From NCBI RefSeq assembly GCF_009912395.1, contig NZ_WNDO01000012.1:62001-126000 (forward strand): a DNA stretch of 64,000 nt, read 5' to 3'. Both the position numbers and the translations under genes were made by a program. Positions 22,831-56,625 of the stretch are shown here, piece after piece; the stretch's first letter is position 1; every line of letters starts with the position of its first letter. Origin of the DNA: Luteibacter sp. Its GTDB lineage: Bacteria; Pseudomonadota; Gammaproteobacteria; Xanthomonadales; Rhodanobacteraceae. The notes below the pieces were generated by a model. It was not told the DNA's origin. It saw nothing but the letters and a program-made list of their open reading frames with translations, and did not search any database.

Positions 22831-23050
22831 CGGCGGGAGTATAGGGGACTCTGCCGCCGGGGCCAGCATGACCGACCGCCTGCCTTGGAGGGGCTTCTAC
22901 ACATTTCCTTCATGTAAGCGGACTTATAGCGTGACCCCGAACGGTCCCGTCTCCGGACGGATGGGACCCTGAGTCGTGGCAGGCAGGCGTGGAAGGACGC
23001 CAGCCCGCTACGTTGGTGGCCGCCATGGCGGCACTACCCGGGGTCTCGAC

Positions 23051-26000
23051 ATGAGCAAGCGCATCGGCGTTTCCGGCCGCCCGCAAGGGGCGCGCCGTCT
23101 GGTAGGGTTGACGCGGCATATCCTGGTGGCTTCCATCGCGGCAAGCCTGCCCGTGGCGGCGCAACAGGCGACTTTGCAACCGTACGATCCGGTCAACAAT
23201 AGCGCCGAGAACGGCGCGGTGATCGTCAATGGCGGCGCCACGCTCACCTTGAACGGTCCACAGCAGTTCGCGCCCGGCGACAGTGGCGACCGGCAGACGA
23301 CGATTGCGGACCTCAAGAATTCCGGTGGTCGGCTCGACGTGAGCGGGTTGCAGTGGCTGAGCGCCGCACGACTGAATCCGGGCCCGCAGAATTTCGGCGT
23401 GAGCGTTCCCGATCCGATCACGGGCGGTCGACGCGTAGCTTCCGCCTACAACACGGCGAACCTCGTCGACCTAGCTCCGCTCCCCGACACCACGTCTGTG
23501 CCGGACATCGCCAACGTGGGCCAGAACCAGTACATCGACGCTCGCATCGGCACGGTGCAATCGACGGGTGGCACGCTCGATGTCGCCATAGGAGTGCCGG
23601 GTGCCTTGTCTACGGCGGCGACCAACGGCTGGACCATGGCGGCGAAGCAGACCTCGCTCGTCTACGTGGATGGCACCGGTACGGCGGCGAGCATCGGGAA
23701 CTGGACATCGTCCAACCGCATTACGTTCGACGGCGCGGTGGCGAGCCCCGACGAGACGCAGAACTTCAGCGTGCCCTTCGTTTCGCACTACGCGGGAACC
23801 GTCAACGTAACCATCGGCGGAACGGCCTACACGTTCCCTGTGACCAACTCGACCCAATTGCGCTCATACAACGATTTCCTGATCCAGCGCATGCAGGACG
23901 GCAGTCTCGATCCGGCCCAGTACAGCGTGTATTTCGCCCTGGCCTACACGTATACGACCGAGGTGGTGGCCTACAAGCTCTCCGCGACGGCGCCTGCGGG
24001 CGACAAGATCGCGCAGCCGATCGGCGATCGCATCGTCCTGCACGCCGTCGGTGCGAACGCGTCGGGTAATGTCGCTCCGGGGGCGGCCCTGGAGGTAGTG
24101 AATGCCAACCACGGCGCGGTGCGCGCCGAGCAAGGGGCGAACGTCACCATCGCGTCGGGCGGCACACTGGCGACGACGCACAGTTCCGGTGACGGTTCCG
24201 CTGTTGTGCTGGCTTCGGCAAGTCACGGAACGAACGACGGCGTGATCAATGGCAACTTCTTCCGGGCCGCCAATGGTGCCATTACGGACAGCCCTTTCGG
24301 CTCCAATGTGGTCGAAGTGCAGGACGGCAGCGATTTCACCAATAACGGCATCCTCAACCTGGCAACCGGCACGGCCAACGGCGCGGGCAAATCCACGGGC
24401 ATCCGCCTGGGCACGGGCGCTGTCGGCACCAACAACGGCATCGTCAACGTGGGCATCAGTGGCTCCCGCTCGAACGGATCGATGGATGGCGTCTACCTCA
24501 ACGATCCCACCGCGAGCTTCACCAACGCGGGCACGATCTATATCGGCCGCGGTCCCCAGGTCGATGCCAATGCAGCCCCCGATGTGGCGATCAACCAGAC
24601 CACGATCACGACCGGCATCAACGTCGCCAACGGTGGCACCGTCAAGAATGCCGCCAACGGCACGATTACCATTGGTTCGCTCACGCAGAACGCCGCCGCC
24701 ATCTATGTCGCCTCGCCCACGGCGAACGTGGACAACGCAGGCACCATCGACATCAACGGCAAGGCATCCGCGGTGCCACGGGAGAACGACGGCATCCTCG
24801 TGCAGAACGCAGGCGCGTCGGGCGCTGTCGTGAACAGCGGCACGATCAACGTGAACGGCGTCAACGGCACGGGCATCAAGGCGCTCTCGACGGCAGGGAC
24901 CGCGTCCCTCGTCAGCTCCACCGGCACCATCAACGTGGCCGGCGGTGCCGATCCATCCAGCGGAGCGCGCAATTTCGGCGTATGGGCCGAAGGGCAGGGA
25001 AGCGCCACCGCGCGGGCCGACGTGCGGGGTGCCGTCAACCTGCTAGGCGATGGCGCGATCGGCATCCACGCCCGTGGCCGCGCCACCGTGGACGTCGCGG
25101 CGGGCGCGGCGCCCAGCTTCACGAGTGGCACGAAGCAGATCGGCTTCTTCGCATTCGGCGATAACGCTCACATCAACGTCAATGGCGGTTCGGTACTGGA
25201 TGTGTCGACCGCACAGTCGACGTTGTTTCGCCTCGACTCGGGCGCCGACTTCGACGGCACCGGCTTGACGATGAGCGTGTCCGGCGCCCAGGCCACGGGC
25301 GTGCTGGGTAGTGGTACGGGTTCGGTGCTCAACACGCGCGATGCGTCCATTGCGGTATCCGGGAGCGGCGCGCAAGGAGTGGTGGCGGAGGGAGGCGCCA
25401 CCGCAACCATTGATGCCGCGACGACCATGAGCCTTACCGGCAATGGTGCCATCGCAGGCATCGCGGATGGCCAGAAGCACAGCCTGACCGGGGCAAACAC
25501 GGGTTCCGTCGTGCGTTCGACGGCGTTGACGAGCAACGCGACGCTGGCATCGTCACAGGCTGGCGTGATCGGTTTCATCGCGCGTAATGGCGCATCGCTT
25601 TCCAATACGGGAAACATCGCCTTCACCGGTACGAACACCATCGGCTTCATCGTGGAAACCAACGCGTCGGCGACTAATGCCGCCAACGTCGATCTCTCCG
25701 GTCCCGGCGCTACCGGCGCGTTGCTTCGGTCAGGTGGCACCTTCGCCAACAACGGTACGATCCATGTCGGCAACGGCACGGGCGTGCGGGTAGAAGGCGC
25801 CGGCACGCAGCGACTGAACCCGGCCGGCACAATCTCCGTCGACGACGGCATCGCGGGCGTGCAGCTGACCAGCGGCGCTGGGCTGGTGCTGGGCAACGGC
25901 GACTCGGCCATCGTCACGCAGGGCAGTGCGCATGGCATCCTCCTGGATACGGGGGCAATCTCGCTGGTGGCCAACGGCACCACGATCACCACGCTCGGCA

Positions 26001-28429
26001 CGGGCAACGCCATCGAGAATGCCGCTGAAGTGGCGGCGATCACGCTCAACGGCGCGACCTTGCGGGTTGGCGGTGGCGCGGGCCTGCGTACCGCCACCGC
26101 CATCGATCCGGCATCGACGGCGACGATCGACGTGCAAGGACCCGGCGTTGGCTATGCGTTCCGGCATGCCGACGGCAGCCCCGCTACGGCGGACCTCGTC
26201 GTTGGACCAGGGATTATCGTGAATGGCACCGCCGCCGGCAGCCGTGGTATCCAGGCGCTCACGACCGGTGCGGTAACCTCGGCGGCGACCGTGAATATCC
26301 TCGATGCCGCTGGAGGCGCCGCGTTGATCGCCGGCACCGCGTCGTCCGTGACGAACAGTGGCCAGCTCACCTCGGCCAGTCTGACGGCGCCCGTCGTCGA
26401 TATCTCGAACGGGCAGGGCACCTCGTTTACGAATACGGGACTCATCAGTGCGGCATCGCCGCAAGCGGTGGCCATCCAGGGCACGGGTCACAGCGTCGTC
26501 AATCTCGTCGGCGGAAGCGTGACGGGCGATGTCGTGACCTCTGGCGGTAGCAGCGCGCTTCGCTGGACGGGCGGCACGCTCGACGGTGGTGCGACGATGG
26601 GTGGTGGCGGCAATACCGCCTATCTAAGCAAGGCGAACACGATCCTTGTCGATCATTTTGTCGCCGACGGTGGGCAAGGCAACGTGCTCACGTTCGACGC
26701 CACGCAAGCCCGTGGTGGTTCGTTCGCGGTCGACAACTTGTCCAAGGGCATGCGTGTCATCGGTTGGAATACCTTCGCCTTGTCGAACATCTCGACATTC
26801 GAGTTGACCGACAACCTACGGATGGCCGGTAGCGAGGTGGATATCGATGCCACGTCGACACTGTACGCAGGCAATGGCGTCCACCCGGTGATTTCGGCCG
26901 ATGCCGATCCGGTTGTCGTCAACAACGCAGGCACGATCGACCTGACCAACGGTGCCGGTTCGCCGGGTAATACGCTCACTATCGACGGCAACTATGCGGC
27001 CAGCCAGGGGCGGCTCAAGCTGGTGACCACGCTCAATGCAGGAGGCGCGTTGTCAAACCAGTCCACGGACCGGCTACTCGTTCAAGGGGATGCCAGTGGC
27101 ACGACCACCCTCCATCTCACGCCGTCGGCGACCAGCACGGGCGCATTGACCGACCTGGATCGCAATGGCTATGTCGGCCCCGCCGAAGGTATTTCCCTGG
27201 TCCAGGTCGGGGGTGCCTCGACGGGCGACGCGTTCCAGGTCGCTGGCGGGTATGTCGCCTTCGGTCCGTGGCAATACGGCCTGTATGCCTTTGCGCCCGG
27301 TGCGAGCGATGCCGGTCAGCGAGTGGTCCCCGGCAGCGGCAATGGATTCTGGGATTATCGCCTCGCCAACGTGCTCGTCTGCGATGGAGGCCCCTGTCCG
27401 CAACCCCGCGTCATCCTCCCCGAGACGCCGCCACCCGTGCCGGTCGATGCGCGTCCGGCGGTGGTCCCGCAGGTGCCGGCGTATGTCGTGTCACCGTCGG
27501 CGTTGGCACTCTATGGCTATCGCACCATCGACAACCTGCATCGCCGCCTCGGCGAAGTGCGGCAGATGGACGACATGGATCCAGGGCTCGGTGGCGAACC
27601 CTTCGTCCGCGTCATGGGGGGCGATTACGCATATACGTCGAACCGGTCGTTCAGGGACTTCGGCTTCGATGCCGACCTGGACATGCGTGCGGTCCAGGTC
27701 GGCACGGACATCCTCGATCTCCAGTCCGACCGGAACACCTTGCGTGCCGGTATCGCGTACACCCACGGCACCACGCGGATCGATCCGAAAACGCCGGACG
27801 GCTACAGCCACGCGAAGATCGATAGCAACTCCATCGCCATGACCCTGACCTGGCAGCACGCCAGTGGTTTCTATGTCGATGCCATCGTATCCGGCGACCG
27901 TCACGCTGGCGATGTCGACACCGCGCGAACGAAGGGTACGGCTCGGCTGAACGGCTCCGGTTGGGACGCCTCGCTGGAATCCGGGTATCCGTTCTCACTG
28001 GGGCGCGGTTGGGAACTCGAACCGCAGTTGCAGGTGGTGCGACAGCATATCGGCCTGCGCGACCAGGTGGACAGCGATGGCGTAAGCACGCGCTACCAGC
28101 CCTTCGACCAGACGATCGGCCGGGCGGGGCTGCGGCTGGACCGCACCTGGCGTACCGACACGGATGCCCTGTTCACGCCCTATGCCAGGCTCAACTACAT
28201 CCGCGGGTGGGGTGGCGCGCCCAGGCTGGTCGTTGGCGAACAAGGCTACGACCTCGCACAGGGTTTCACGGGAGGAAACGTCGGGCGCATGTGGGAATTG
28301 GGATTGGGAGGCACCTGGCAGTGGCGCAACCGTGTGTCGATCTACGGCGAGGGCGACTGGCAGGGGCGGGCCGGGAGCAGCGGCGCCCAGGGCTGGAGCG
28401 CAAACCTGGGGGTGTGCTGGAATTTCTGA
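23051..28429 (+). CDS. Giant type Va autotransporter, beta-helix passenger
   Basis: This 1792-residue secreted protein has a long signal peptide (1-38, ending LPVAAQQ). The passenger of about 1450 residues is made of degenerate repeats rich in Asn, Gly, Thr and Val, with turns such as NNGTIHVGNGTGV, VNSGTINVNG and FTNTGLISAASPQ, the pattern of a right-handed beta-helix. A Pro-rich linker near 1470 (LPETPPPVPVD) precedes a C-terminal barrel domain of about 280 residues ending GVCWNF with the terminal Phe expected for outer-membrane insertion. There is no protease triad visible in the passenger, so an adhesin-like role is more likely than an enzyme. ATG 23051 precedes MSKRIGV; an upstream GTG frame adds 25 residues without a signal-like start. 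The hemA gene follows on the same strand. Confidence 0.92.
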   Translation: MSKRIGVSGRPQGARRLVGLTRHILVASIAASLPVAAQQATLQPYDPVNNSAENGAVIVNGGATLTLNGPQQFAPGDSGDRQTTIADLKNSGGRLDVSGLQWLSAARLNPGPQNFGVSVPDPITGGRRVASAYNTANLVDLAPLPDTTSVPDIANVGQNQYIDARIGTVQSTGGTLDVAIGVPGALSTAATNGWTMAAKQTSLVYVDGTGTAASIGNWTSSNRITFDGAVASPDETQNFSVPFVSHYAGTVNVTIGGTAYTFPVTNSTQLRSYNDFLIQRMQDGSLDPAQYSVYFALAYTYTTEVVAYKLSATAPAGDKIAQPIGDRIVLHAVGANASGNVAPGAALEVVNANHGAVRAEQGANVTIASGGTLATTHSSGDGSAVVLASASHGTNDGVINGNFFRAANGAITDSPFGSNVVEVQDGSDFTNNGILNLATGTANGAGKSTGIRLGTGAVGTNNGIVNVGISGSRSNGSMDGVYLNDPTASFTNAGTIYIGRGPQVDANAAPDVAINQTTITTGINVANGGTVKNAANGTITIGSLTQNAAAIYVASPTANVDNAGTIDINGKASAVPRENDGILVQNAGASGAVVNSGTINVNGVNGTGIKALSTAGTASLVSSTGTINVAGGADPSSGARNFGVWAEGQGSATARADVRGAVNLLGDGAIGIHARGRATVDVAAGAAPSFTSGTKQIGFFAFGDNAHINVNGGSVLDVSTAQSTLFRLDSGADFDGTGLTMSVSGAQATGVLGSGTGSVLNTRDASIAVSGSGAQGVVAEGGATATIDAATTMSLTGNGAIAGIADGQKHSLTGANTGSVVRSTALTSNATLASSQAGVIGFIARNGASLSNTGNIAFTGTNTIGFIVETNASATNAANVDLSGPGATGALLRSGGTFANNGTIHVGNGTGVRVEGAGTQRLNPAGTISVDDGIAGVQLTSGAGLVLGNGDSAIVTQGSAHGILLDTGAISLVANGTTITTLGTGNAIENAAEVAAITLNGATLRVGGGAGLRTATAIDPASTATIDVQGPGVGYAFRHADGSPATADLVVGPGIIVNGTAAGSRGIQALTTGAVTSAATVNILDAAGGAALIAGTASSVTNSGQLTSASLTAPVVDISNGQGTSFTNTGLISAASPQAVAIQGTGHSVVNLVGGSVTGDVVTSGGSSALRWTGGTLDGGATMGGGGNTAYLSKANTILVDHFVADGGQGNVLTFDATQARGGSFAVDNLSKGMRVIGWNTFALSNISTFELTDNLRMAGSEVDIDATSTLYAGNGVHPVISADADPVVVNNAGTIDLTNGAGSPGNTLTIDGNYAASQGRLKLVTTLNAGGALSNQSTDRLLVQGDASGTTTLHLTPSATSTGALTDLDRNGYVGPAEGISLVQVGGASTGDAFQVAGGYVAFGPWQYGLYAFAPGASDAGQRVVPGSGNGFWDYRLANVLVCDGGPCPQPRVILPETPPPVPVDARPAVVPQVPAYVVSPSALALYGYRTIDNLHRRLGEVRQMDDMDPGLGGEPFVRVMGGDYAYTSNRSFRDFGFDADLDMRAVQVGTDILDLQSDRNTLRAGIAYTHGTTRIDPKTPDGYSHAKIDSNSIAMTLTWQHASGFYVDAIVSGDRHAGDVDTARTKGTARLNGSGWDASLESGYPFSLGRGWELEPQLQVVRQHIGLRDQVDSDGVSTRYQPFDQTIGRAGLRLDRTWRTDTDALFTPYARLNYIRGWGGAPRLVVGEQGYDLAQGFTGGNVGRMWELGLGGTWQWRNRVSIYGEGDWQGRAGSSGAQGWSANLGVCWNF

Positions 28430-28505
28430 GTACGACCCAGTCCATAGCTTGAACCTATCGGGGCGAAAACAAAAATGAATTTCCCTGATTGATTCATGGC
28501 CTCTA

Positions 28506-28537: not shown

Positions 28538-29797
28538 ATGGTCGATTACCTGCAGCATTTCGAGCGAAGCATCGACGCCCTCAAGCAGGAGCGCCGGTAC
28601 CGGGTTTTCGCCGATCTCGAGCGGCACGTGGGTCGTTTTCCCCATGCGCGCCTGCATGACGGGGAGGGCGGCCGGGATGTCGTCGTATGGTGCTCCAACG
28701 ACTACCTTGGCATGGGCCAGCACCCCGCCGTGATCGATGCGATGGCGTTGGCGGCCCGTACGATGGGCGCAGGTGCGGGTGGCACTCGCAATATCTCCGG
28801 CACTCATCACGCCATCGTGGAGCTGGAAGACGAACTGGCCGACTTGCATGACAAGGAGGCATCCCTGGTCTTCACCTCGGGCTACGTCTCCAACCTGGCA
28901 GGTATCGCGACCATCGCACGCCTTCTTCCGGACTGCGTGATCCTTTCCGATGCGCTGAACCACAACTCGATGATCGAGGGCGTGCGCGCTTCGGGTGCCG
29001 ACAAGCGGATCTGGCGCCACAACGACCTGGCCCACCTGGAAGAGCATCTCGTTCGTGCCGGCGATCGGCCGAAGCTGATCGCCTTCGAAAGCGTTTATTC
29101 CATGGATGGCGACATCGCGCCGATCGCTGCGATCTGCGACCTCGCGGAGCGCTACGGCGCGATGACGTACATCGATGAAGTCCACGCTGTCGGGATGTAT
29201 GGCCTGCGTGGCGGTGGCATCGCGCAGCGCGAAGGGCTTGCGCATCGTATCGATGTCATCGAGGGCACCCTCGCCAAAGGCTATGGGGTGCTGGGCGGAT
29301 ATATCGCCGGCCGAAAGGCGGTGATCGACGCCGTTCGCTCGCATGCGCCGGGTTTCATCTTCACCACGACCCTACCGCCGCCGGTCGCGGCGGCGGCCGC
29401 CGCGTCCGTGCGGCACCTGAAGTCCTCGCAGGACGAACGTGTCCGCCACCAGGCCGCCGTGCGCACCACGAAGCAGGCGTTGCGCGAGGCAGGCTTGCCC
29501 GTCATGCCTGGCGAAACCCATATCGTGCCGGTGCGGGTGGGCGACGCGGACGTATGCAAGCGTGCTAGCGATCTGCTTCTGGATCGCCACGGCATCTACA
29601 TTCAGCCGATCAACTATCCGACGGTACCTCGTGGGGGCGAACGCCTGCGCATCACGCCGACGCCGTTCCATGACGAGACGATGATTGCTGCGCTCCGGGA
29701 TGCGCTGCTCGACGTGTGGCAGACGCTCGGGCTGCCTCTCGGCGAGGCCCCCGACGAACCCTGCCGCGCCGCCGTCACCGTCGCGGCCGGAGGTTGA
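28538..29797 (+). CDS. hemA: 5-aminolevulinate synthase (Shemin pathway)
   Basis: This PLP enzyme condenses glycine and succinyl-CoA to 5-aminolevulinate, the first heme precursor. The 419-residue protein shows the ALAS-type N-terminus ([18 protein letters not shown], with the substrate Arg in RYR), [13 protein letters not shown], the family-diagnostic [15 protein letters not shown] (Thr and Asn positions that bind succinyl-CoA), [22 protein letters not shown] and Lys247 in GTLAKGYG. With the start at 28538 the PLP lysine falls at 247, next to the position known for Rhodobacter ALAS (248), which supports this start over the upstream ATG 28496. Relatives KBL and BioF lack the GGTRNISG pattern. 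Most gammaproteobacteria use the glutamate C5 route, so this is unusual. It is coupled to hemH 1 base downstream. Confidence 0.93.
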
Positions 29798-29798
29798 G

Positions 29799-30848
29799 AT
29801 GAACACGTGGCGAGGCTCCGTGTCCGTGTCCCGTATCGATCCCGCTTCCACACGCGGCAAGGTTGGCATCCTGTTGTCCAACCTCGGCACGCCAGACGGG
29901 ACCGACTATGCCTCGGTCCGTCGATACCTTTCCGAATTCCTGTCCGACCCGCGTGTCGTCGAACTGCCGAAACTCGTCTGGCAGCCCTTGCTGCAAGGCG
30001 TGGTGCTGCTCAGGCGGCCAGCCCTGAAGGGGCGGGACTATGCGCGCATCTGGAATCACGAGCGCGACGAAAGCCCCCTGAAGACCATTACCCGGGCCCA
30101 GGCGATGAAGCTCGCGTCCTGGGCGAGCGAGGTCTTCTGCGAAGAGCGCGTGGCGGTAGCCTGGGGCATGCGCTACGGCAACCCATCCATCGACGAGGCC
30201 GTGGCCGAGCTTACCGCCAAGGGCTGCGACCGCATCCTCATGCTTCCGTTGTATCCCCAGTATTCCGCTACCACCACGGCCACGGCCAACGATCGCTTCT
30301 TCGCCGCGCTGCGTCGTCTTCGCGACCAGCCCGCGTCACGCACCGCACCCGCGTGGTACGACGAACCGGTTTATATCGATGCGCTGGCTCGTTCGGTTCG
30401 TCGGCAACTCGCGATGCTGCCATGGGAGCCGGAGGTGGTCGTCGCCTCCTTTCATGGCATTCCGCTGCGCAATGTGGAGCAGGGGGATCCGTACTTCGTG
30501 CAATGCCAGCGCACGGGCGAGCTGCTGCGCAAGGCGCTGGATCGGTCGCCGACCGCGTTCCGCATCACCTATCAATCGCGCTTTGGCTACGCGGACTGGT
30601 TGCAGCCATACACGGACGCGACACTGCGCCAGTTGGCGAGCGAGGGCGTCCGACGGGTGGCGGTGCTTTCGCCGGGCTTCGTAGCGGACTGCATCGAAAC
30701 CCTCGATGAAATCGGTCGCGAAAACGCCGAGGTGTTCCTGGCGGCTGGCGGTGAGCGATTCAGCGCGCTGGCCTGCCTCAACGACAGCGACGAGGGTATG
30801 GACGTGCTTCGTGACCTGGTCTGTCGGGAAAGTCGCGGCTGGTTGTGA
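29799..30848 (+). CDS. hemH: Ferrochelatase
   Basis: HemH inserts Fe2+ into protoporphyrin IX, the last step of protoheme synthesis, at the cytoplasmic membrane face. The 349-residue protein has the N-terminal KVGILLSNLGTPDGTDYASVRR, LPLYPQYSATTTATANDR, catalytic His219 in VVASFHGIP and the second active-site segment LSPGFVADCIETLDEI with its conserved Glu. ATG 29799 lies one base after the hemA stop, with GGAGG inside the hemA end, so the two are translationally coupled. An upstream in-frame start at 29685 is within hemA. First and last committed heme enzymes in one operon point to regulated heme output rather than secondary-metabolite use of 5-aminolevulinate. Confidence 0.96.
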   Translation: MNTWRGSVSVSRIDPASTRGKVGILLSNLGTPDGTDYASVRRYLSEFLSDPRVVELPKLVWQPLLQGVVLLRRPALKGRDYARIWNHERDESPLKTITRAQAMKLASWASEVFCEERVAVAWGMRYGNPSIDEAVAELTAKGCDRILMLPLYPQYSATTTATANDRFFAALRRLRDQPASRTAPAWYDEPVYIDALARSVRRQLAMLPWEPEVVVASFHGIPLRNVEQGDPYFVQCQRTGELLRKALDRSPTAFRITYQSRFGYADWLQPYTDATLRQLASEGVRRVAVLSPGFVADCIETLDEIGRENAEVFLAAGGERFSALACLNDSDEGMDVLRDLVCRESRGWL

Positions 30849-30915: not shown

Positions 30916-31794
30916 ATGAAGCGGATAGCGGCCATCGGCCTTGTTCTTTGCCTGAGTGCATGCGCCGTACGTCCACCGGAGACGGGGCGGCAGGCGCTGG
31001 CGGACGTGCGTCGCTGGTACGCCGATACCAGCGACCGGTGCCCGGGGGGAGCGGATCGTCCCGCCGCGCTGTGTAGTGGCGTCCTGTTGCGGGCGACGGA
31101 AAACAATCCCGCCTTCCTGCCATGGAATCCCAGTCCCGCCTCCATCACCCGGGGTGCGGTCTCGTTTTCCTACCTGCGCGCCGATGTGAACTACACCAAC
31201 CTGGTGTTCACCTATCGCAACGGCTACATCCTCTATCCCTCGGACAAGCGGCCGAAAGGCAGCCTCGATGTCGCGGTGCTCTGTGCCTTTCCCATGGATG
31301 CCGACACCTATAACCGGCCCACGGAACAGGGATGTGGCGAGAACACCGTGGACCGGTCACCGTCGGCGACTCGTGCCTGCGACGCGCAGGGTATCGAGAG
31401 CTTGGCTCAGTGGAAGCTGCTCTTCGCTGCGATGGAGAACACCTATTCGGGGCAGTGCGGATGGAATGTCCGCGAAGGACAGCCCGGCGCGGCGGCTCGT
31501 TTCCTGTTGAGCCTGCGTGCGCATGAGGCGATGCCGGATGCGCAGCGCGCACTGGCGAACGAATTGCGTCTCGCGACCTGGCCGAAGGATAGTGGCACGC
31601 GGTTGCCGATACGCGCCTTCTTCTACGTGCCCGCCGCCGATGGCGCGCTGGCGAAGGCACAGGATGACCAGCGCCGCTATCGCGCCGCCTACGGCGTGTC
31701 CATGCCTATCCTGCGCCTTAACCTGCCCGTGGTGGTGGGCGCCAGGGCCACGTTCGACTACGAAGCGGCCGATCAATCGCCCGTGCCGCCGTGA
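30916..31794 (+). CDS. Halovibrin HvnA-like exported lipoprotein
   Basis: This 292-residue lipoprotein has lipobox LSAC at residues 12-15. The features WYADTSDRCPGG, CSGVLLRATENN, WNPSPASITRGAVSFSYLR, CAFPMDADTYNRP and NELRLATWPKDSGTRLPIRAFFYV match my memory of proteins annotated halovibrin HvnA in Pseudomonas and Vibrio. The Vibrio fischeri founder is reported to be a secreted NAD-glycohydrolase. Several Cys residues (RCPGG, LCSG, LCAF, GCGE, ACDA, QCGW) suggest disulphides in the periplasm or outside the cell. It follows hemH by 67 bases on the same strand, so co-transcription is possible. Enzyme activity is inferred from the name only; the family call is moderate. Confidence 0.55.
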   Translation: MKRIAAIGLVLCLSACAVRPPETGRQALADVRRWYADTSDRCPGGADRPAALCSGVLLRATENNPAFLPWNPSPASITRGAVSFSYLRADVNYTNLVFTYRNGYILYPSDKRPKGSLDVAVLCAFPMDADTYNRPTEQGCGENTVDRSPSATRACDAQGIESLAQWKLLFAAMENTYSGQCGWNVREGQPGAAARFLLSLRAHEAMPDAQRALANELRLATWPKDSGTRLPIRAFFYVPAADGALAKAQDDQRRYRAAYGVSMPILRLNLPVVVGARATFDYEAADQSPVPP

Positions 31795-31822: not shown

Positions 31823-33766
31823 TCACTTCACGACGGGAAGCGACACGTAGGTTCCGGCGTCACCATCCCGAAGTACCGTCTGCGTCGCCTTTCGGTAATC
31901 CCCCGGCTTGGCGTTGAAGATATTCGGCACGAAGGTTTGCGGATTGCGGTCGTACAGCGGGAACCAGCTCGACTGGATCTGCACCATCACGCGATGGCCC
32001 GGCTGGAAGACATGGTTCACCGTGGGTAGCGGGAAGTCGTAGGCCAACGGCTTGTCCGCGGCGATCGCCTTGGGCTTGTCGTAGCCCTCGCGATAGCGGC
32101 CGCGGAAGATCTCCATCGCGATCGGCAACTGGTAACCGCCCATCGAGGGTTTTTCTTCCACCTCGTCCGGATACACGTCGATCAGCTTCACCACCCAGTC
32201 GCTGTCCGTGCCGCTGGTCGACGCCAGCAGGTGGACCAGCGGCTCGCCGGCCACGCCCATCGGGGTGTCCAACACCGGCGAGACATAGGTCAGCACGTCG
32301 GTGCGTGTCGCGAACTGGCGCTGGTCGTCCACCAGCCATTCGGGCCAGCTGTCCTGGCGGTCCGCCACGCCGTGCGACCAGGATTGGATGGGTCGCACGC
32401 GATAGGGCACCGGCTTGGCCGGGTCGGAGACATAGGCGTCGTCGCCCTTGCCGGGCACCTGCGTACCGAAGCCGCCATGGGCCTCGACGTACCAGCGCTG
32501 CATGGTCGGGGCGCAGCCCTGCGCGCAGGACGACGGCCAGGTGTCGAGCCGGCGCCAGGTGTTCTCGCCGGTCACGAAGGCATTCACCGGGGCGACGTCC
32601 GCCTTCGGTGCATCGTCCTTCAGGTACTGGGCGAGGAAGGGACGCAACATCGTCTGGCGGAAGGTGCGGCCCGTATCGCTACCCAGTTCGAGGGCGCCGA
32701 TGGTGCTGGCGTTCTCCCAGGTCTTGGCATGACGCCATGGGCCCAGCACGAGCCAGAGCTTCTGGTGCTCGGGGTCACGCGGGGCCAGTGCGCGATACAC
32801 CGCCATGTCGCCGTAATTGTCCTCCTGGTCCCACAGGCTGTGGACCAGCATGGTGGGCACCGTCATCGGTTCCTTCGCGGCGATGCGATCAAGCGCCTGC
32901 TCGGACCAGAAGCTGTCGTACGCAGGATGGGCGAGGATCTTCTTCCAGAAGCCCAGTGCCTCCATGCCCTGGGCACGGCCGATGTCGCCCGCGGAGCCAC
33001 CCTGGAGGTAGAGGTCGTAGTCGTCGCGGTAGCCGGTCGTCCAGGGGATGTCGCTGCCGCGCGAGTTCGCCATGCCGTAGATGTACGGAATCATCTGCTG
33101 GCGGAACGCGCCCCGGTGGAACCAGTCGTCACCCATCCAGCCGTCGATCATCGGGTTGATCGGCACAGCGACCTTGAGCGCCGGGTGCGGGCGTATGGTG
33201 GCGATCATCGCCTCGAAGCCGTCGTACGAGATGCCGATGATGCCGACCTTGCCGTTGGATTCCGGCACGTGCTTCACCAGCCAGTCGATGCTGTCGTAGA
33301 TGTCGCTGGACTCGTCGATGGCGGTGGGATTGCCGTGGCCGATGGGCGGACGGTTCATCACGAAGTCGCCCTCGGAGCCGTGCTTGCCACGGATGTCCTG
33401 GATCACCCGGATGTAGCCGTCCTGCACGACGATGTCGGCGGGATTGTCGTAGCCGCGCAGGGTAGGCCCCAGATGCGGGCTGTCTGCCCGGTTGCCCATG
33501 CCGTCGGCGCCGTAGGGCGTGCGGGTGAGCAGGATGCCCGCGTGTGTCGCCCCCTTGGGCACGAGGATGACGGTGTGAAGCTTCACGCCGTCGCGCATGG
33601 GGATGTCCACCGTGCGTCGCTCGTAGTCGTAGCCGGCACGGGTGGGTTCGAAATGGGCCGGCGTTTCCGTCGGCAGGTCCTTGTAGGTCTTTTCGCCGCC
33701 GATCGCCGGGGCCGCGAGGGCCCCGGCGACGAGCGCGACGATGGACAGTCGCATGAACGGATGCAT
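31823..33766 (-). CDS. CocE/NonD (S15) family alpha/beta hydrolase, exported
   Basis: This 647-residue periplasmic or secreted hydrolase has a signal peptide at 1-23 (ending PAIGG). The alpha/beta domain has nucleophile Ser180 in GIISYDG-type context (VGIIGISYDGFEA), an early VQDGYIRVIQDIRGKHGSEG, and later WDQEDNYGD with a likely catalytic Asp. A beta-jelly-roll C-terminal domain (from about 440) carries FQPGHRVMVQIQSSWFPLYDRN, standard for X-Pro dipeptidyl peptidase S15, cocaine esterase and alpha-amino-acid ester hydrolase relatives. The substrate is probably a small amino-acid ester or amide or a peptide. GGAGAAGC precedes the start, and the TonB receptor gene ends 10 bases upstream, so uptake and cleavage of one substrate is likely. 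Confidence 0.88.
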   Translation of the reverse strand: MHPFMRLSIVALVAGALAAPAIGGEKTYKDLPTETPAHFEPTRAGYDYERRTVDIPMRDGVKLHTVILVPKGATHAGILLTRTPYGADGMGNRADSPHLGPTLRGYDNPADIVVQDGYIRVIQDIRGKHGSEGDFVMNRPPIGHGNPTAIDESSDIYDSIDWLVKHVPESNGKVGIIGISYDGFEAMIATIRPHPALKVAVPINPMIDGWMGDDWFHRGAFRQQMIPYIYGMANSRGSDIPWTTGYRDDYDLYLQGGSAGDIGRAQGMEALGFWKKILAHPAYDSFWSEQALDRIAAKEPMTVPTMLVHSLWDQEDNYGDMAVYRALAPRDPEHQKLWLVLGPWRHAKTWENASTIGALELGSDTGRTFRQTMLRPFLAQYLKDDAPKADVAPVNAFVTGENTWRRLDTWPSSCAQGCAPTMQRWYVEAHGGFGTQVPGKGDDAYVSDPAKPVPYRVRPIQSWSHGVADRQDSWPEWLVDDQRQFATRTDVLTYVSPVLDTPMGVAGEPLVHLLASTSGTDSDWVVKLIDVYPDEVEEKPSMGGYQLPIAMEIFRGRYREGYDKPKAIAADKPLAYDFPLPTVNHVFQPGHRVMVQIQSSWFPLYDRNPQTFVPNIFNAKPGDYRKATQTVLRDGDAGTYVSLPVVK

Positions 33767-33776
33767 TGCTTCTCCG

Positions 33777-36700
33777 TCAGAAGTCGTAGGTGATACCGAA
33801 GCGGGCGTAACGCGGCGGCGTGTAGCTGATCACGCGCTGGTAGGCGTCGTTGATCGAGTTCTTGCTGCCGGAAACGGGTTCGCTCTGGTCCGGACGCTGC
33901 TGGTTGAGCAGATTGAACACCGAGGCGCTGAAGGCCAGCTTGCGGTCGGCCCACAACGGACGATACTCCAGGCTCACGTCGAGCAGTTCCTGCCAGGGCT
34001 GCCGGCCGGCGTCGCCCGGACGCGACGGCACGCCGAAGCAGAAGTGGTAGTAGCTGCCGTAGCCCGCCGGATCGCCCTCGTCCGCACCATAGCGACCCAG
34101 GCATTCCTTCGGACGCCCGGATTGCACGGTGAGGTTGGCCGAGACCATCCACTCAGGCGCGATCTGGTACGAGCCGTAGAGCTTGATCTGGTGCTTGCGA
34201 TCGTTCGACAGATAGCCGTTGGCGTAGTCCATCAGCGTCGCGTAGTCCCAGTCGCGGGATGCTGCGACGGAGCCCTGGCTCACGTCGGAGCGCATCTGGC
34301 CTTCGGTGTTGCCGTAGCTGCGCGAATACAGGTAGTCGATCTTGCCCGACCACTTGCCGTCGAACGGATGCGACAGGTAGACGTCCAGGCCGTAGTAGTT
34401 GCGCTTGAGCTGGGTGAAGCCGAAGTCGTCGTTGGTCACCGTCACGTTGGTGTAGCCGCCGTTGGCGTTTTTCAGCTGGTAGACGTTCGCGCGTCCCGGA
34501 TTGGACAGGTAGCAGCTGCCGATGGCGACCGACTGCAGGTCGGCGCCCTGGGCCGCCGCGGCACGGGAGATCGCACCATGATCGCAGACGTCATCGAGCG
34601 CGGTGCGCAGCTTGCGTACCGTGGCCTTCGCACCCCATACCCAGGCCGGATCGAACTGGTGGTCGAAACCGAGGATGAATTCATCCTGGTATTCCGACTT
34701 GAGGTTCTTCGAGCTGACGGTCTTGGGATCGGGCGGCTGGCCGTATTCGCCGTTGGGCGACACCGCACCACCCGTAGCCGACTTGATATAGGTGATGCCG
34801 GTGGGCAGGCCGTTCGCGTCGATGCCGGTATAGGTGAAGTACTGGTTGGTCGCCAGCGAGCCGGCCGACGTGCGCAGCGCCACCGATGCGGGCATGGCGA
34901 GGTAGTAACGACCGGCATTGCCGTAGATCTTCAGCGAAGCATCGCCCTTGACGTCGTAGCTGAAGCCCAGGCGCGGCGCCCACTGCGGCTTGCCCAGGCG
35001 CAGGTACGCCTGGCCGGACGGGTTATAGTTGGTGAACTGGTCGTTGCGCACGCCGAGCGAGAGCAGCAGCTTGTCGTTGACCTGCCAGTCGTCCATCACG
35101 TACTGGGCGCGTTGCCGGACGCGTACCGTGGCCAGCGTGTTGTAGTGGCGGTAGTACCCGTAGTAGCCGGTTTCACCACCGGGATAATTGCCCGGTTCGT
35201 CCACAAAGGGATTGTCGCTGATGTTGAGCTTGGGGTCGGTCTTGCCGTACCACAACTCGTAGCCGACGCCGCCGATGGTGGTGCCGTCCTCGTAGTCCTT
35301 GGTGTCCTGGTTGTCGATACCGGCCGTGATCGAATGCGAGCCGATCTTGTAGTTCAGGTCGATGCGCAGGTTGCGCGCGTTCGACTCGTGCCCCGGGTTG
35401 TCGACGGTGTCGAGCGTCTGGTGGTTCGTGATGCCCTTGCCGCCGTTGAGGGCGGGATTCTGCTGGTCGAGGCCACCAATGAACGGACCGACGACACCCG
35501 TCTGCGCCGGCTCGTTGTAGTAGGTGAGCTTCGACTTGCCGTACAGCGCGGTCAGGGTCAGGTTGTCGGTGATGTAGCTGGTGAACTTGCCGATATAGAC
35601 ACGGGCCTGGGTCTTGTCGGTCTCGTCGATGTTGCTGAAGCTGCCGCGGGTCAGCGTGCCGTAGTCGTAGTTGTACTTGTCGCCGGTGGTGCGGTGCGAC
35701 TGACCGACGCTGGTCAGTTCGAGGATGTTGTTATCGGTGATGTTCCAATCGAGCTTGCCGTACCACTTCGGATCCTTGTACGTGTACTTGGTGTCGTACG
35801 AGTGGTTCAGGTCGCCGACCGAGTTGCCCTCGGTGCGCGCGGCCTCCACCGCAGCGAACACGTACAGCTTGTTCTCCACCAGGGGGCCGCCAGCGTAGCC
35901 GCTGATGGTGCTGGTCCACGAGTGGTTGTCCTGGTTGCGCAGGAAGATGCTGCCCTGGGTCTGGGCGTTGCCATGCACGTAGCGGATGTCGCGACCTTCC
36001 GAGCGTGCGAAGTCGGGCTCCCACAGCACCTGGGCACCGAAGTGCCATTCATTGGTGCCGCGCTTGCCCACCTGGCTGATCACGCCGCCGTCCGATCGGC
36101 CGTACATGGCGGAGTAGCCGCCACTGAGCACTTCCTGCTGGTCGATGGCGCCGTAGGGCAGGCTGACGCCACCGAAACCGCTCAGCGGATCGGTCGTGTT
36201 GAAGCCGTTGATGTAGTAAGCGTTCTCGCTGACCGACGAACCGGCGAAGGAGACCAGCGAACCGCCGAAGGCGCCCTTGAAGTTGGCGATGCCGCGCGAC
36301 GCGCCGGGAGCGAGCAGGGCGATGCCCTCGGCCGAGCGCTGCAGGGGAAGGCGGGCGAGGTCCGCGGAGGTGATCACGGTGCTCGAGGCCACGGTGGCGA
36401 CGTCGATCTTCGGCATCTGGTTCGCCGAAACGGTCAGGCCTTCGAGCTGCTGGGTGCCGCCGCTGGCAGTGTCGAACGACACATCGGTGGAGGCGCCGAC
36501 GCGCAGGGTGACGTTGTCACGCGATTCGACGATCGCGCCGTTCTTCTTCAGGGATACCTTGTACGTGGCGAGCGGCAGCGATTCGGCGGCGTAACGGCCG
36601 CGGCTGTCGACACCCACTTCGCGCGTGAGGCCATTGCTGCCCTCGATGAGCACCGTCTCGCCATCGGCGATGGGTGCCTGGCCGGCGATGCGACCGGTGG

Positions 36701-36785
36701 TGGCCTGGCCGTGGGCGAGGCCGGAAAGCGACGCGGCGACCGCGGCGCAGATCAAGGTCCGTCTTAGGGAAGGTCGGGGTTGCAT
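33777..36785 (-). CDS. TonB-dependent receptor, Oar/CarbopepD-like N-terminus
   Basis: This 1002-residue outer-membrane receptor has a signal peptide at 1-26. A carboxypeptidase-regulatory-like beta-sandwich (about 30-105; GRYAAESLPLATYKVSLKKNG) precedes a plug domain (LEGLTVSANQMPKIDV as TonB-box region, INGFNTTDPLSG, YSAMYGRSDGGVISQVGKRG). The 22-strand barrel ends ARFGITYDF with the expected terminal Phe. This Oar-like class in Xanthomonadales commonly imports peptides or protein fragments. The S15-type hydrolase gene is 10 bases downstream, making a receptor-hydrolase pair. It lies 97 bases downstream of the DeoR gene with its own likely promoter in that gap. Confidence 0.93.
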   Translation of the reverse strand: MQPRPSLRRTLICAAVAASLSGLAHGQATTGRIAGQAPIADGETVLIEGSNGLTREVGVDSRGRYAAESLPLATYKVSLKKNGAIVESRDNVTLRVGASTDVSFDTASGGTQQLEGLTVSANQMPKIDVATVASSTVITSADLARLPLQRSAEGIALLAPGASRGIANFKGAFGGSLVSFAGSSVSENAYYINGFNTTDPLSGFGGVSLPYGAIDQQEVLSGGYSAMYGRSDGGVISQVGKRGTNEWHFGAQVLWEPDFARSEGRDIRYVHGNAQTQGSIFLRNQDNHSWTSTISGYAGGPLVENKLYVFAAVEAARTEGNSVGDLNHSYDTKYTYKDPKWYGKLDWNITDNNILELTSVGQSHRTTGDKYNYDYGTLTRGSFSNIDETDKTQARVYIGKFTSYITDNLTLTALYGKSKLTYYNEPAQTGVVGPFIGGLDQQNPALNGGKGITNHQTLDTVDNPGHESNARNLRIDLNYKIGSHSITAGIDNQDTKDYEDGTTIGGVGYELWYGKTDPKLNISDNPFVDEPGNYPGGETGYYGYYRHYNTLATVRVRQRAQYVMDDWQVNDKLLLSLGVRNDQFTNYNPSGQAYLRLGKPQWAPRLGFSYDVKGDASLKIYGNAGRYYLAMPASVALRTSAGSLATNQYFTYTGIDANGLPTGITYIKSATGGAVSPNGEYGQPPDPKTVSSKNLKSEYQDEFILGFDHQFDPAWVWGAKATVRKLRTALDDVCDHGAISRAAAAQGADLQSVAIGSCYLSNPGRANVYQLKNANGGYTNVTVTNDDFGFTQLKRNYYGLDVYLSHPFDGKWSGKIDYLYSRSYGNTEGQMRSDVSQGSVAASRDWDYATLMDYANGYLSNDRKHQIKLYGSYQIAPEWMVSANLTVQSGRPKECLGRYGADEGDPAGYGSYYHFCFGVPSRPGDAGRQPWQELLDVSLEYRPLWADRKLAFSASVFNLLNQQRPDQSEPVSGSKNSINDAYQRVISYTPPRYARFGITYDF

Positions 36786-53984: not shown

Positions 53985-54051
53985 GCAGCAGCTGCGAAGA
54001 TGCACAACAGGAAAAGGCACGCTTTAGCAGGATCGCCTGCGGACGTCACCA

Positions 54052-54519
54052 CTACTCACCCTCGGGCCCCTTCTTTGTCGGCCATGGCTGGCCTTCCGCT
54101 TGCCCCAATCCCTTGATGGCAGTGAGCGCTCCAGCACTTCGGAACGAACCGTACCCGGTCACATCCAGTGGTTCTGCAATATATCGTCCTTCAAGGTAGA
54201 CATAATGACCCTCGTACGGCTTGAGAGCCTTGGCCACGTCCTCGGATATCGCGCCCATGACGAGGATTCCGGCCGAAGCATCGCGCATTTCGTAAGCGTC
54301 TCGGGACGCGAACAACATGGGGCGCACGCCGCCTACATAGAAGCCCCTCACAAACACGGGCTTTCGATCAAATAGTTCGCTTCGCGCGATCAGTGTGGTG
54401 AACGCGACGGGGCATATCTCACCCCCACCCGAGCCCCTTTTGAAGCACGCATCTGCAGGGCTGCTTGCGATGGAGGCGGCAGAACAAAGCGCGCAGATCC
54501 AGAAGGCAAGTAGTCTCAT
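54052..54519 (-). CDS. Small exported protein coupled to the Rhs gene, putative immunity protein
   Basis: This 155-residue protein has a signal peptide (1-25, ending SPADA), so it acts in the periplasm or beyond. A compact beta-rich body follows (FDRKPVFVRGFYVGGVRPML, FASRDAYEMRD, YEGHYVYLEGRYI) and a charged tail. The start overlaps the Rhs-core gene stop by ATGA, the usual coupling of toxin and immunity genes, and it shares that gene's lower GC. No family is recognised. Immunity function is inferred from position alone. Its periplasmic location would suit a toxin domain acting in that compartment or arriving from outside. Confidence 0.6.
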   Translation of the reverse strand: MRLLAFWICALCSAASIASSPADACFKRGSGGGEICPVAFTTLIARSELFDRKPVFVRGFYVGGVRPMLFASRDAYEMRDASAGILVMGAISEDVAKALKPYEGHYVYLEGRYIAEPLDVTGYGSFRSAGALTAIKGLGQAEGQPWPTKKGPEGE

Positions 54520-55538
54520 CTGGCCTCTCCTCGAATGGTTGTGATGCCATCCCCAAGCTGTCGTTGTCCGTGCCTGTCTACATCCGATTTAAATGACCGG
54601 TAATCCCACCCGTAAATAGTCCCATTGGGTAGGGATACGTAACCGTTGATTCCATTGTTGAAGTAGCGCACGAGGTCTCCGTGACCGTAATCACCACTTC
54701 TGACTGCAGCACTCTGTAGCGGAAGGGCTACGGCCGTTCTTCCGGAGAAACTATTGTTATCCGGGTGAGTGTGGATCTCCCCCTGCTTTCTATCGGGATC
54801 CAGCACGTTACGCAACATGAGTATGTCGATCGTGTTGCGGTCGCCGGTGCTGTACGAATTCGACGAAGAGTAGCCCGTACCATTTCTGAATAGAATGTCC
54901 GCGCCAATCTCGACCTTGAGCCTGTTTGTTATGGGTTGAACTACATCGGACCAAGCAATCGACAGTGCGCCTGCGGATCCATAGGATGAACCAAGGACGC
55001 CGGCGGATATCAGGGCTTTGTCCGCGAGCTTGCTGGCCCGCAGTCCTTGAGTGAACCTTTCGCCGTCTCCAGGGCCGATGTTTTCGCAGCGGTAAATTTC
55101 GCAGTTGATCTGCTCGCCGCTCATTCCCTCTGCATAGAGGCCTGTGTAATCAGCGAGAGTCGCAGGGCTGTTTGCGGCGTACGTGAAACGATTAAAAGTG
55201 AATCCCCGCCCCGCGGCAAGATCGAGAGGGTCGGGACTTAAGAATCTTCCCATAGAGGGGTCGTAGTAGCGAGCCTGCATGTAAACGTAATCCGATTCCG
55301 CATCAGTTACGTGACCAACAAATCCCGCTTGATTCGCCCGAGAGTCCATGGCTTCACGGCCAAATGGTGTGTATTCAGCTTTGGATCGAAGATTTCCATT
55401 TGCATCAGTAGTTGCAAGCACATTTCCTTGAGGGTCAGTGTAGTAATAAGTGACCTCTTCGGTAGCTAATGCTGGCTGAGTGGCTACCAGTGCTAATAAA
55501 TAGGCCGATAGAAAACTTGCACGTCTTTGGATGTCCAA
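54516..55538 (-). CDS. Short exported Rhs-core protein with JAB/DUF4329-like C-terminus
   Basis: This 340-residue protein has a signal peptide (IQRRASFLSAYLLALVATQP, cut after ALA). Only one Rhs/YD repeat is present (YYYTDPQGNVLATTDANG) before the Rhs-associated core (QARYYDPSMGRFLSPDPLDL, then YAANSPATLADYTGLYAE). From about residue 200 a variable C-terminal domain follows with GEIHTHPDNN and YGHGDLVRYFNNGINGYVSLPNGTIYGWDY. It fits JAB/DUF4329-type deubiquitinase-peptidase-like domains: His-x-His plus a downstream Asp, with the Ser of the motif absent. TTG 55538 is chosen: AGGGGG lies 6 bases upstream; the longer frame begins inside a terminator hairpin. Lower GC than the neighbours marks it as acquired. 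It is likely a polymorphic-toxin cassette or remnant. Confidence 0.8.
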   Translation of the reverse strand: MDIQRRASFLSAYLLALVATQPALATEEVTYYYTDPQGNVLATTDANGNLRSKAEYTPFGREAMDSRANQAGFVGHVTDAESDYVYMQARYYDPSMGRFLSPDPLDLAAGRGFTFNRFTYAANSPATLADYTGLYAEGMSGEQINCEIYRCENIGPGDGERFTQGLRASKLADKALISAGVLGSSYGSAGALSIAWSDVVQPITNRLKVEIGADILFRNGTGYSSSNSYSTGDRNTIDILMLRNVLDPDRKQGEIHTHPDNNSFSGRTAVALPLQSAAVRSGDYGHGDLVRYFNNGINGYVSLPNGTIYGWDYRSFKSDVDRHGQRQLGDGITTIRGEAR

Positions 55539-55626
55539 TTCCAGCCCCCTGTTGATGACTCCTCGTTGATCACGATAAAGGACGTCACGAGTGATGGGCA
55601 AGAGTGCCCGTGGCGAGGGGGCGGGC

Positions 55627-55666
55627 AAAAAAAAGACACTAGCCACAGGGCTAGTGTCTTTTTTTT
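55627..55666. terminator. Bidirectional terminator between the ABC operon and the Rhs cassette
   Basis: Perfect 10-bp stem GACACTAGCC/GGCTAGTGTC at 55635-55658 with a 4-base loop, flanked by eight A and eight T. It ends the ABC-transporter operon (minus strand) 15 bases after the permease stop and insulates the Rhs gene downstream. Confidence 0.95.
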
Positions 55667-55680
55667 GGGTGTTGCGGGGC

Positions 55681-56625
55681 TCAGCTCTCGTCCCGCCACC
55701 GCCTGAACCAGATGGCCCCCGCGATCATCGCGATCCCTGCGATGGCACCGATCCACAGCGAGGGCTGGGCAAGGGTGCTGTAGTGGTAGGCGAGGTTGAC
55801 CTTGTCGAGCGCCGCAGCTGGATTGCTGGTGTCGAGGCCGGCGAGGGACGAGGCCTCGGTCAACCAGCCGCCGGGAATCAGTCCGCCAAGCAGGCGACCC
55901 GCCACGTAGTGCCAGTAGTTGCTGGAGATGCCGTGCACGCCACCCATCAGGCCCATCCAGGCGATGACCGCGCCGGTGCCCAGGGGTAGGGCGATGGCCC
56001 AGAGGAACGGCTTGCTGCGGGCCCAGGCAGAGCAGAGCATCAGCCAGCCGACGGTAGGCAGGGCCCAGATCGCATACAGCGGGATCAGCAGCACGAGGTT
56101 GACGATGACCTTGAGCGGGTGGGCCTGCATCAGCAGCGGCCAGATGGAGATGCCGTGGTACGTGCCGACCATGGCGAACATGATCGCCAGCATGAGGCCG
56201 GTGACGACACCTACAACCACCGCGACCGCTGGCGCCACAAGGATCGCGCTGGCGACCTTGGACAGCACCGTGTCGGTATCTGACAGCGGCAGCGACTTCC
56301 AGAACAGGATGCTGCGATCGCGCCGGTCGTCGTACAGGGCGCCCAGGCAGTAGAAGAACACCACGATGGCGGTGACGATCAGCACCAGGTAGGTCATGCC
56401 GTAGAGCAGGCCATCGATGACCGCGCCGGCCTGGACCAGGTCCGCGTCTTCATAGGCACGGGAGAAGTTACTGTGGAAGTTGCCCATGGCGGTATGGGCC
56501 TCGCCCACCGCGATGAGCATCGCATTGAGCACAAAGGCGATGGCGCCCGCCACGATCGGCGCGGTGATGAAGCCGCCCTTGTGCTCCCAGAATTCGCGCT
56601 TGACCAGCCAGTAGAAGGTTTTCAT
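55681..56625 (-). CDS. ABC-2-type transporter membrane protein
   Basis: This 314-residue inner-membrane protein has about six to seven helices (APIVAGAIAFVLNAMLIAVG; MTYLVLIVTAIVVFFYCLGAL; ATAILVAPAVAVVVGVV-like middle; IGAIAGIAMIAGAIWFRRW end) and a cytoplasmic-side DDRRDRSILFWKSLPLSDTDTVLSK, typical of ABC-2 permeases. Gene order behind a YtrA regulator and ATPase matches ytr-type operons (Bacillus YtrABCDEF and relatives), which are switched on by cell-envelope stress. It overlaps the ATPase gene by 4 bases and ends at the strong terminator. Confidence 0.9.
   Translation of the reverse strand: MKTFYWLVKREFWEHKGGFITAPIVAGAIAFVLNAMLIAVGEAHTAMGNFHSNFSRAYEDADLVQAGAVIDGLLYGMTYLVLIVTAIVVFFYCLGALYDDRRDRSILFWKSLPLSDTDTVLSKVASAILVAPAVAVVVGVVTGLMLAIMFAMVGTYHGISIWPLLMQAHPLKVIVNLVLLIPLYAIWALPTVGWLMLCSAWARSKPFLWAIALPLGTGAVIAWMGLMGGVHGISSNYWHYVAGRLLGGLIPGGWLTEASSLAGLDTSNPAAALDKVNLAYHYSTLAQPSLWIGAIAGIAMIAGAIWFRRWRDES

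Follow-up and report, generated by a model that had tools for sequence, protein, structure and literature searches.

Why should a gammaproteobacterium equipped with the C5 route to 5-aminolevulinate (ALA) additionally carry a Shemin-type 5-aminolevulinate synthase (ALAS) next to a second ferrochelatase? The question is raised by a stretch of 64,000 nucleotides from Luteibacter sp. (assembly GCF_009912395.1, contig NZ_WNDO01000012.1, positions 62,001 to 126,000; hereafter the window), in which a hemA gene for ALAS (28538..29797, + strand) is followed by hemH (29799..30848, + strand). The usual view, as outlined in the accessible part of a recent paper, places the Shemin (C4) route in alphaproteobacteria and most eukaryotes and the C5 route in all other bacteria (PMC11480375). 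We propose, with a probability of about 0.6, that hemA-hemH represents the half of a peroxide-defence module that supplies heme, that this module was acquired horizontally and would in its full form consist of catalase, ALAS, ferrochelatase and OxyR, and that its own catalase has been lost. The first-pass annotation of this DNA had missed the connection to catalase and OxyR, which likely gives the purpose of the gene pair.

The hemA product (419 aa) scored 639.6 bits with the family model TIGR01821 (cut-off 338.55), while the models for BioF, KBL and serine palmitoyltransferase scored lower and each stayed below its own cut-off, which assigns the protein to the ALAS family by a curated model. 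As the first-pass annotation had stated, the enzyme is complete, with the GGTRNISG motif beginning at residue 81 and the pyridoxal phosphate lysine at residue 247 (numbered from the ATG at 28538). An alignment to PDB entry 2bwn, which we take to be the Rhodobacter capsulatus ALAS and whose key residues presumably have their customary roles, showed that the residues at R21, N54, T83, N85, I86, H142 and K248 (R. capsulatus numbers, counted by hand on the alignment) are all kept; the best PDB match was 7x98. The protein is thus predicted to convert glycine and succinyl-CoA to ALA. The residue following the lysine is Gly, as in only one of the 27 housekeeping ALAS rows compared, the other 26 having Ala. 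The open reading frame (ORF) spans 28496/28538-29797 and contains an upstream in-frame ATG at 28496, which is probably not the start because the protein of a relative from the same genus (G112) begins at MVDYL. The heme ligands of the Caulobacter type, His340 and Cys398, have no counterpart in the window ALAS, which carries Val and Leu at these positions (located by hand count via R. capsulatus His342/Cys400). We considered a loss of heme feedback as the speciality of the module and rejected it, since the housekeeping rows, inspected by eye, also lack conserved His and Cys at these positions; according to the part of PMC6154995 available, this motif is absent from most alphaproteobacterial ALAS.

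The downstream hemH gene runs from the ATG at 29799 to a stop codon ending at 30848 and codes for a ferrochelatase of 349 aa, as indicated by 271.1 bits with TIGR00109 (cut-off 124.6) and 337.4 bits with PF00762, likewise above the cut-off. Only one base (29798) separates the TGA of hemA from the ATG of hemH, and a GGAGG sequence lies at 29789-29793 within the end of hemA, ahead of the hemH start. The earlier wording had ALAS "fused in one operon" with ferrochelatase; the genes are adjacent rather than fused. HemH shared 56% identity with the copy of Bradyrhizobium erythrophlei GAS478 (L026) and 57% with another alphaproteobacterial copy (L085), compared to 46–48% with the other HemH of its own genome (46% by tblastn). 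The best 15 of 105 matches in a plasmid collection (52–56%) all came from genera that are alphaproteobacterial by name, among them Sinorhizobium, Shinella, Ensifer, Methylobacterium and Azospirillum. By these comparisons the protein is nearer to the alphaproteobacterial ferrochelatases (52–57%) than to the genome's own second copy. Both genes appear to be under purifying selection: the dN/dS values against G112, determined like all such values here by the NG86 method, were 0.099/1.317 (about 0.08) for hemA and 0.174/0.933 (about 0.19) for hemH, averages which include the time before the catalase loss and cannot date it.

The genome (5.39 Mb, completeness 100, contamination 0.29) also contains the entry enzymes of the C5 route, for which the first-pass annotation had recommended a search. 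A gene for glutamyl-tRNA reductase (GluTR; C1:363364-364599, 429 bits) and one for HemL (C24:63393-64652, 644 bits) were found above the cut-offs of TIGR01035 and TIGR00713, respectively, and a further ferrochelatase gene at C56:80803-81768 (314 bits); none of the three has internal stops. GluTR was nearest to those of Halomonas, Aeromonas and E. coli (50–52%), which were among the best 8 of 58 records in the plasmid collection. Therefore, the gene pair in the window appears to supplement the C5 route and not to replace it, and of the two options left by the earlier annotation only supplementation agrees with this. There is a single ALAS in the genome, the next matches being alpha-oxoamine-synthase-like proteins with 30–38% identity. 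The coexistence of both routes suggests a plausible division of labour, with C5 for housekeeping and C4 for emergency heme.

The peroxide connection derives from the relatives of the gene pair. Two of the 22 other genomes of the genus (G112 and G119, loci L104 and L105) contain at the same chromosomal site the genes for a catalase, ALAS, ferrochelatase and an OxyR-type LysR regulator, and B. erythrophlei GAS478 (L026 in genome G600) has the identical order kat-hemA-hemH-oxyR, its four proteins being 81, 78, 58 and 62% identical to those of L104. The module catalase is close to solved catalases (832 bits to 1m85). For the regulator, OxyR was the best NCBIfam model (235.6 bits, which is below the equivalog cut-off of 329), and OxyR proteins were also its best solved relatives; it contains two cysteines nine residues apart in a GHCLREQALAAC-type motif. 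At the window site, the ALAS belongs to the module clade described below, and neither a catalase gene nor an OxyR gene adjoins hemA-hemH. Among the genomes of Bradyrhizobium, we found 18 related ALAS loci in 17 of 265 at E<=1e-195, with a catalase gene just upstream in 13, a ferrochelatase gene downstream in four and an OxyR-like gene nearby in five of the 18. The five loci without catalase have either an HD-domain gene (two) or a response-regulator-like gene (three) directly before ALAS; sister loci have relatives of these genes upstream of their catalase gene, so that one to three losses of catalase probably occurred here as well (the branches within this group are poorly supported). One of the catalase-less Bradyrhizobium loci (L160, 6445-7920) has a gene for a di-heme cytochrome c peroxidase of the MauG type (PF03150), itself a heme enzyme, facing hemA. 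B. erythrophlei GAS478 yielded eight ALAS matches at E<=1e-110, and two of these adjoin catalase genes.

A careful tree of 53 ALAS rows united the proteins from the window, G112, G119, G078 (a genome from another genus of the family), L026 and the Bradyrhizobium loci found at E<=1e-195 in a module clade of 21 rows with a support of 100/99, and the housekeeping Bradyrhizobium ALAS (L129, L038, L042, L061) fell into a separate clade. Ten of 63 rows had been excluded from this tree (two outgroup, five long or divergent, two long housekeeping rows and one near-duplicate). A quick tree of all 63 rows, rooted with two of the genome's own alpha-oxoamine-synthase-like proteins, gave a module clade of 22 rows at 99. 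The same 22 rows and nothing else grouped at 96 in a quick tree of 106 rows, which covered all 80 scanned loci (the two outgroup and the five long or divergent rows were left out and 50 further loci added). Because it is nested among alphaproteobacterial ALAS, the window ALAS is best explained as horizontally acquired, and together with the affinities of hemH this bears out the first-pass view that the operon was acquired. Within the module clade, the window, G112 and G119 grouped at 100/99, and G078 grouped with L026 at 95/92; the family may therefore have acquired ALAS on more than one occasion. The catalase of L026 fell into a nine-row group (99) with the catalases of the genus and a Rhizobium plasmid catalase, separate from the remaining module catalases of Bradyrhizobium, a placement that suggests an exchange between the classes.

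In the family and class of the window, this ALAS occurs in few genomes. At E<=1e-120 it was detected in four of 233 genomes of the family, representing two of 26 genera: that of the window, G112 (85% identity), G119 (83%) and G078 (76%). An even sample of the class yielded four matches in 369 genomes at E<=1e-110, including the window's own; the other three had identities of 53% (G394), 51% with four stops (G335) and 44% (G408, to the G112 protein). The last of these belongs to a 1.2-Mb genome, in which a ferrochelatase gene lies about 4 kb off on the other strand (L170).

The linkage of ALAS to catalase follows the clade. A catalase gene lies within 10 kb at 17 of the 22 module ALAS loci (within about 1 kb at 16) and at none of 77 loci outside the clade in the DNA examined around them, the latter taken from a contig scan of the best 80 of 574 relatives. 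A Fisher test of 17/22 against 0/77 gave 5e-15, calculated on rows that are relatives and not independent and on contigs some of which end early. The linkage exceeds chance, and independent support comes from G078, where ALAS adjoins a catalase of another clade (46% identical to the module catalase and 79% to a catalase encoded on contig C23 of the window's genome). Among the plasmid relatives of ALAS, catalase and hemH, no catalase-ALAS pair stood beside the match in the annotated stretches opened (nine of several hundred matching records were opened; L020 and L228 carry no annotation, and the PLSDB gene tables are incomplete). One Sinorhizobium chiapasense plasmid (L018) contains genes for ALAS, a Dyp-type peroxidase and a c-type cytochrome within one 21-kb stretch.

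Evidence for a lost catalase comes from the 108 bp between the stop codon of the preceding autotransporter gene and the ATG of hemA. Positions 28441..28491 (+ strand) align without gaps to the sequence preceding kat in G112 (L104), with 38 of 51 positions identical and none of 1000 dinucleotide shuffles reaching the score. Shorter matches were obtained with the kat upstream regions of G119 (L105), G116 (L212) and G107 (L209), for which 1, 0 and 0 of 1000 shuffles were as good. The gap between kat and hemA of the relatives gave no match to the hemA upstream region of the window (585 and 805 of 1000 shuffles as good). Because hemA is thus preceded by sequence matching the catalase promoter and 5' leader and not by the kat-hemA gap, the catalase gene was probably deleted, bringing its promoter ahead of hemA. 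Since the sequence is likewise found ahead of catalase at sites with catalase only (L209, L217, L219), the reverse course, in which catalase was inserted behind the promoter, is less likely.

This relic contains a palindrome, ATAGCTTGAACCTAT (28444..28458, + strand), which fits ATAGnTnnnAnCTAT, which we take to be the OxyR consensus, without mismatch, while L104 and L105 have two mismatches each. A search tolerating up to one mismatch gave no second match in the window, where 0.16 matches are expected and at least one occurs in 15 of 100 shuffles; the hemA promoter accordingly carries a putative OxyR-type site. The pattern ATAG-N7-CTAT also occurs upstream of kat at six of seven catalase loci of the genus (the exception being L210), upstream of both kat and oxyR in L026, and upstream of an OxyR-like gene in L158, L159, L166 and the C23 locus of the same genome. 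In G078, hemA and kat each have their own copy about 100 bp upstream. Two OxyR-like genes are encoded elsewhere in the genome of the window, on contigs C23 and C35. The protein from C35 is of the two-cysteine form, and the motif lies immediately ahead of its start codon (L111, 2402-2416), as expected of a self-controlled regulator. That from C23 (L114, 4716-5618) keeps the first OxyR cysteine, has alanine at the second and is adjoined by the catalase gene mentioned above; a further catalase-like gene was found on C36. Either the C35 OxyR or the C23 OxyR-like protein could act on the site upstream of hemA. The extended motif ATAG-N7-CTATCG occurs at three places in the genome, namely before hemA, before the OxyR-like/catalase pair on C23, and on C28.

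We infer from these sequences how the operon would be used, including enzyme activity, OxyR binding, peroxide induction and the fate of the heme. Hydrogen peroxide would oxidise an OxyR-type regulator, which would activate the promoter with the ATAG-N7-CTAT site, so that hemA-hemH is probably peroxide-induced. ALAS would then condense glycine and succinyl-CoA to ALA and so circumvent the controlled step at glutamyl-tRNA, the housekeeping enzymes HemB to HemG would presumably carry it to protoporphyrin, and the extra ferrochelatase would add capacity for iron insertion. One operon would in this way bracket the heme pathway at its precursor and at its iron insertion step, and the heme formed would fill catalase and other heme enzymes. 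As the site no longer contains the catalase and OxyR genes of the module, the present clients would be catalases encoded elsewhere in the genome. A further-reaching version, to which we give somewhat less than an even chance, regards the module as a mobile "heme-on-demand" cassette, in which a Shemin ALAS paralogue became specialised as a peroxide-controlled C5 bypass for arming catalase and whose parts came and went independently of each other at a single chromosomal site; its heme half would survive here under the promoter of the deleted catalase and serve the OxyR-like/catalase pair on another contig as a split regulon.

Several observations weigh against a peroxide-controlled heme supply. 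The occurrence of the extended motif on C28 is not accompanied by an evident redox gene, and the reversed motif used as a control also matched once in the genome; moreover, the extended form, to which the genome-wide count applies, was chosen after viewing the aligned promoters. ATAG-N7-CTAT was present in 26 of 220 loci examined, some of them without a known link to the module (L006, which lies on the genome's own C15, L018, L020, L053, L102 and L203). Conversely, it is missing from some catalase-linked loci, namely L210 in the genus and nine of the 13 in Bradyrhizobium; at five of these nine, a response-regulator-like gene lies upstream in its place. Because catalase is absent, the operator before hemA could be a relic, and the OxyR-like protein from C23 has only the first of the two cysteines. 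Finally, ALAS is present in just three of 23 genomes of the genus, and it is dispensable in G116 (L212), whose kat-hemH-oxyR set contains no hemA.

These points lead to the rival explanations. The operon might be a general heme booster freed from peroxide control, for which the catalase-promoter sequence merely provides a promoter. The loss of the catalase and OxyR genes from the site would agree with this, as would the architecture of the operator: a full OxyR site consists of four elements, i.e., it includes a second adjacent palindrome, which is not evident by inspection of the upstream alignment. We nevertheless regard this explanation as rather unlikely, since the remaining palindrome is intact, fitting the consensus better than those of L104 and L105, and two OxyR-like genes persist in the genome. 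A decaying leftover without function, suggested by the lost module partners and the patchy presence in the genus, is clearly improbable in view of open reading frames, conserved key residues and the low dN/dS values of both genes.

Still less can be said for the alternatives concerning the enzyme itself. A replacement of the C5 route by ALAS is conceivable in principle, as a single enzyme can supply all ALA, for example the phage AlaS in E. coli lacking the C5 route, as described in the accessible text of PMC11480375, but with GluTR and HemL both present and free of stops it is very improbable here, unless GluTR should be inactive. A role in secondary metabolism, with ALAS feeding a C5N unit, seems even more far-fetched: the gene is neighboured by ferrochelatase, autotransporter, peptidase and TonB receptor genes, its relatives by those for catalase and OxyR, and the ALAS clade is alphaproteobacterial. 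Actinomycetes with ALAS copies dedicated to such units also keep the C5 route for heme. That they carry such copies, which is the precedent for this idea, is reported in the part of PMC4525017 available. The least probable assignment, to a practically negligible degree, is that of a KBL, BioF or other alpha-oxoamine synthase. These enzymes share the fold family, and the bioF model reached 330.6 bits; however, this is far from the score with TIGR01821, and the related proteins of the genome, two of which served as outgroup, are only distantly similar. We therefore rejected this identity on the basis of both the family models and the tree, in agreement with the first-pass annotation.

The gene content of the chromosomal site varies within the genus. 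On the left, outside the module, lies the gene for an autotransporter (22976..28429, + strand; ORF of 1817 aa, PF03797 with 107.5 bits, PF18883), which is found on the same side in L104 and L105 (63–65% identity over the C-terminal part). To the right follow a gene for a 292-aa protein (30916..31794, + strand) without Pfam or NCBIfam match, one for an X-Pro dipeptidyl-peptidase (S15) family hydrolase (31823..33766, - strand; PF02129, PF08530) and one for a TonB-dependent receptor (33777..36785, - strand; PF07715 and barrel domains). In L104 and L105, the full module is placed between the autotransporter and the peptidase/TonB receptor genes. The 292-aa protein probably belongs to the site because similar proteins (45–78%; L203, L209, L215) are encoded near it in members of the genus without hemA. 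The hydrolase gene, whose dN/dS against G112 was 0.082/0.836, was matched at at least 75% identity in 21 of 23 genomes of the genus, window included, and served as anchor for comparing these 21 sites (G114 and G118, without an orthologous anchor, were left out); the gene order around the TonB-dependent receptor was alike in all of them. ALAS was present at three sites (window, G112, G119), catalase-hemH-oxyR without ALAS at one (G116), catalase only at four (G107 and G109 among them) and neither at 13, and the window alone had hemA-hemH without catalase. The loss pattern of G116 is the complement of that in the window. One genus thus offers a natural series from catalase only over catalase-hemH-oxyR and the full module to hemA-hemH only. 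Contamination or a chimeric assembly was rejected, because two other genomes show the same synteny of flanks and module with diverged sequences and because the GC content resembles that of the surroundings.

Elsewhere in the window, the GC content dips to 0.57 over 54001-56000, where an ORF (54052-55646, - strand) contains an Rhs-like core by eye (DPQGNVLATTDANGNLRSKAEYTPFG, RYYDPSMGRFLSPDPL) and is followed by an ORF of 155 aa, neither having a Pfam match at E 0.001. It resembles part of an Rhs-type interbacterial protein that may be accompanied by a partner gene.

Among known systems, the closest parallels are the peroxide regulons of E. coli and Bacillus subtilis. The E. coli genes concerned are scattered, with C5 as the only ALA route, and the regulon contains no catalase-ALAS-hemH-oxyR operon; the HemA of B. 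subtilis is of the GluTR type. As summarised in the accessible section of a review, which cites Mancini and Imlay 2015, peroxide stress strains heme synthesis for catalase, and E. coli OxyR induces hemH and hemF along with the catalase KatG, so that a peroxide-induced ferrochelatase sustains the heme supply of catalase as proposed here (PMC8115020). The same section describes that PerR of B. subtilis controls katA together with hemAXCDBL, i.e., a peroxide sensor likewise co-controls catalase and early heme steps, but PerR is a repressor, ferrochelatase lies outside the regulon as outlined there, and katA and the hem operon are separate (PMC8115020). A horizontally moved ALAS that is workable in C5 hosts is also known from a phage cassette, which differs in being phage-borne, in its partners (heme oxygenase and bilin reductase) and in an AlaS with about 55% identity to that of Pelagibacteraceae, according to the available part of PMC11480375. 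In E. coli, negligible amounts of porphyrin were formed when hemAB was combined with over-expressed katE or katG alone, as far as reported in the accessible text of PMC11763182, an outcome that lends no support to catalase as a helper of ALAS. The window ALAS belongs to the same family as the alphaproteobacterial enzymes (R. capsulatus 2bwn; 7x98), with which its key residues align, but unlike these it shares its genome with the C5 route and sits in a catalase-linked paralogue clade. Among the matches listed in a search of the open-access literature (titles and beginnings of abstracts), we found no description of an operon in which ALAS, ferrochelatase, catalase and OxyR are combined. The arrangement makes it testable by gene removal what limits catalase in peroxide stress. 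The enzymes are ordinary and their arrangement is unusual: catalase and heme synthesis are known to be induced together, and what appears to be new is the operon form of a putative peroxide-linked heme supply.

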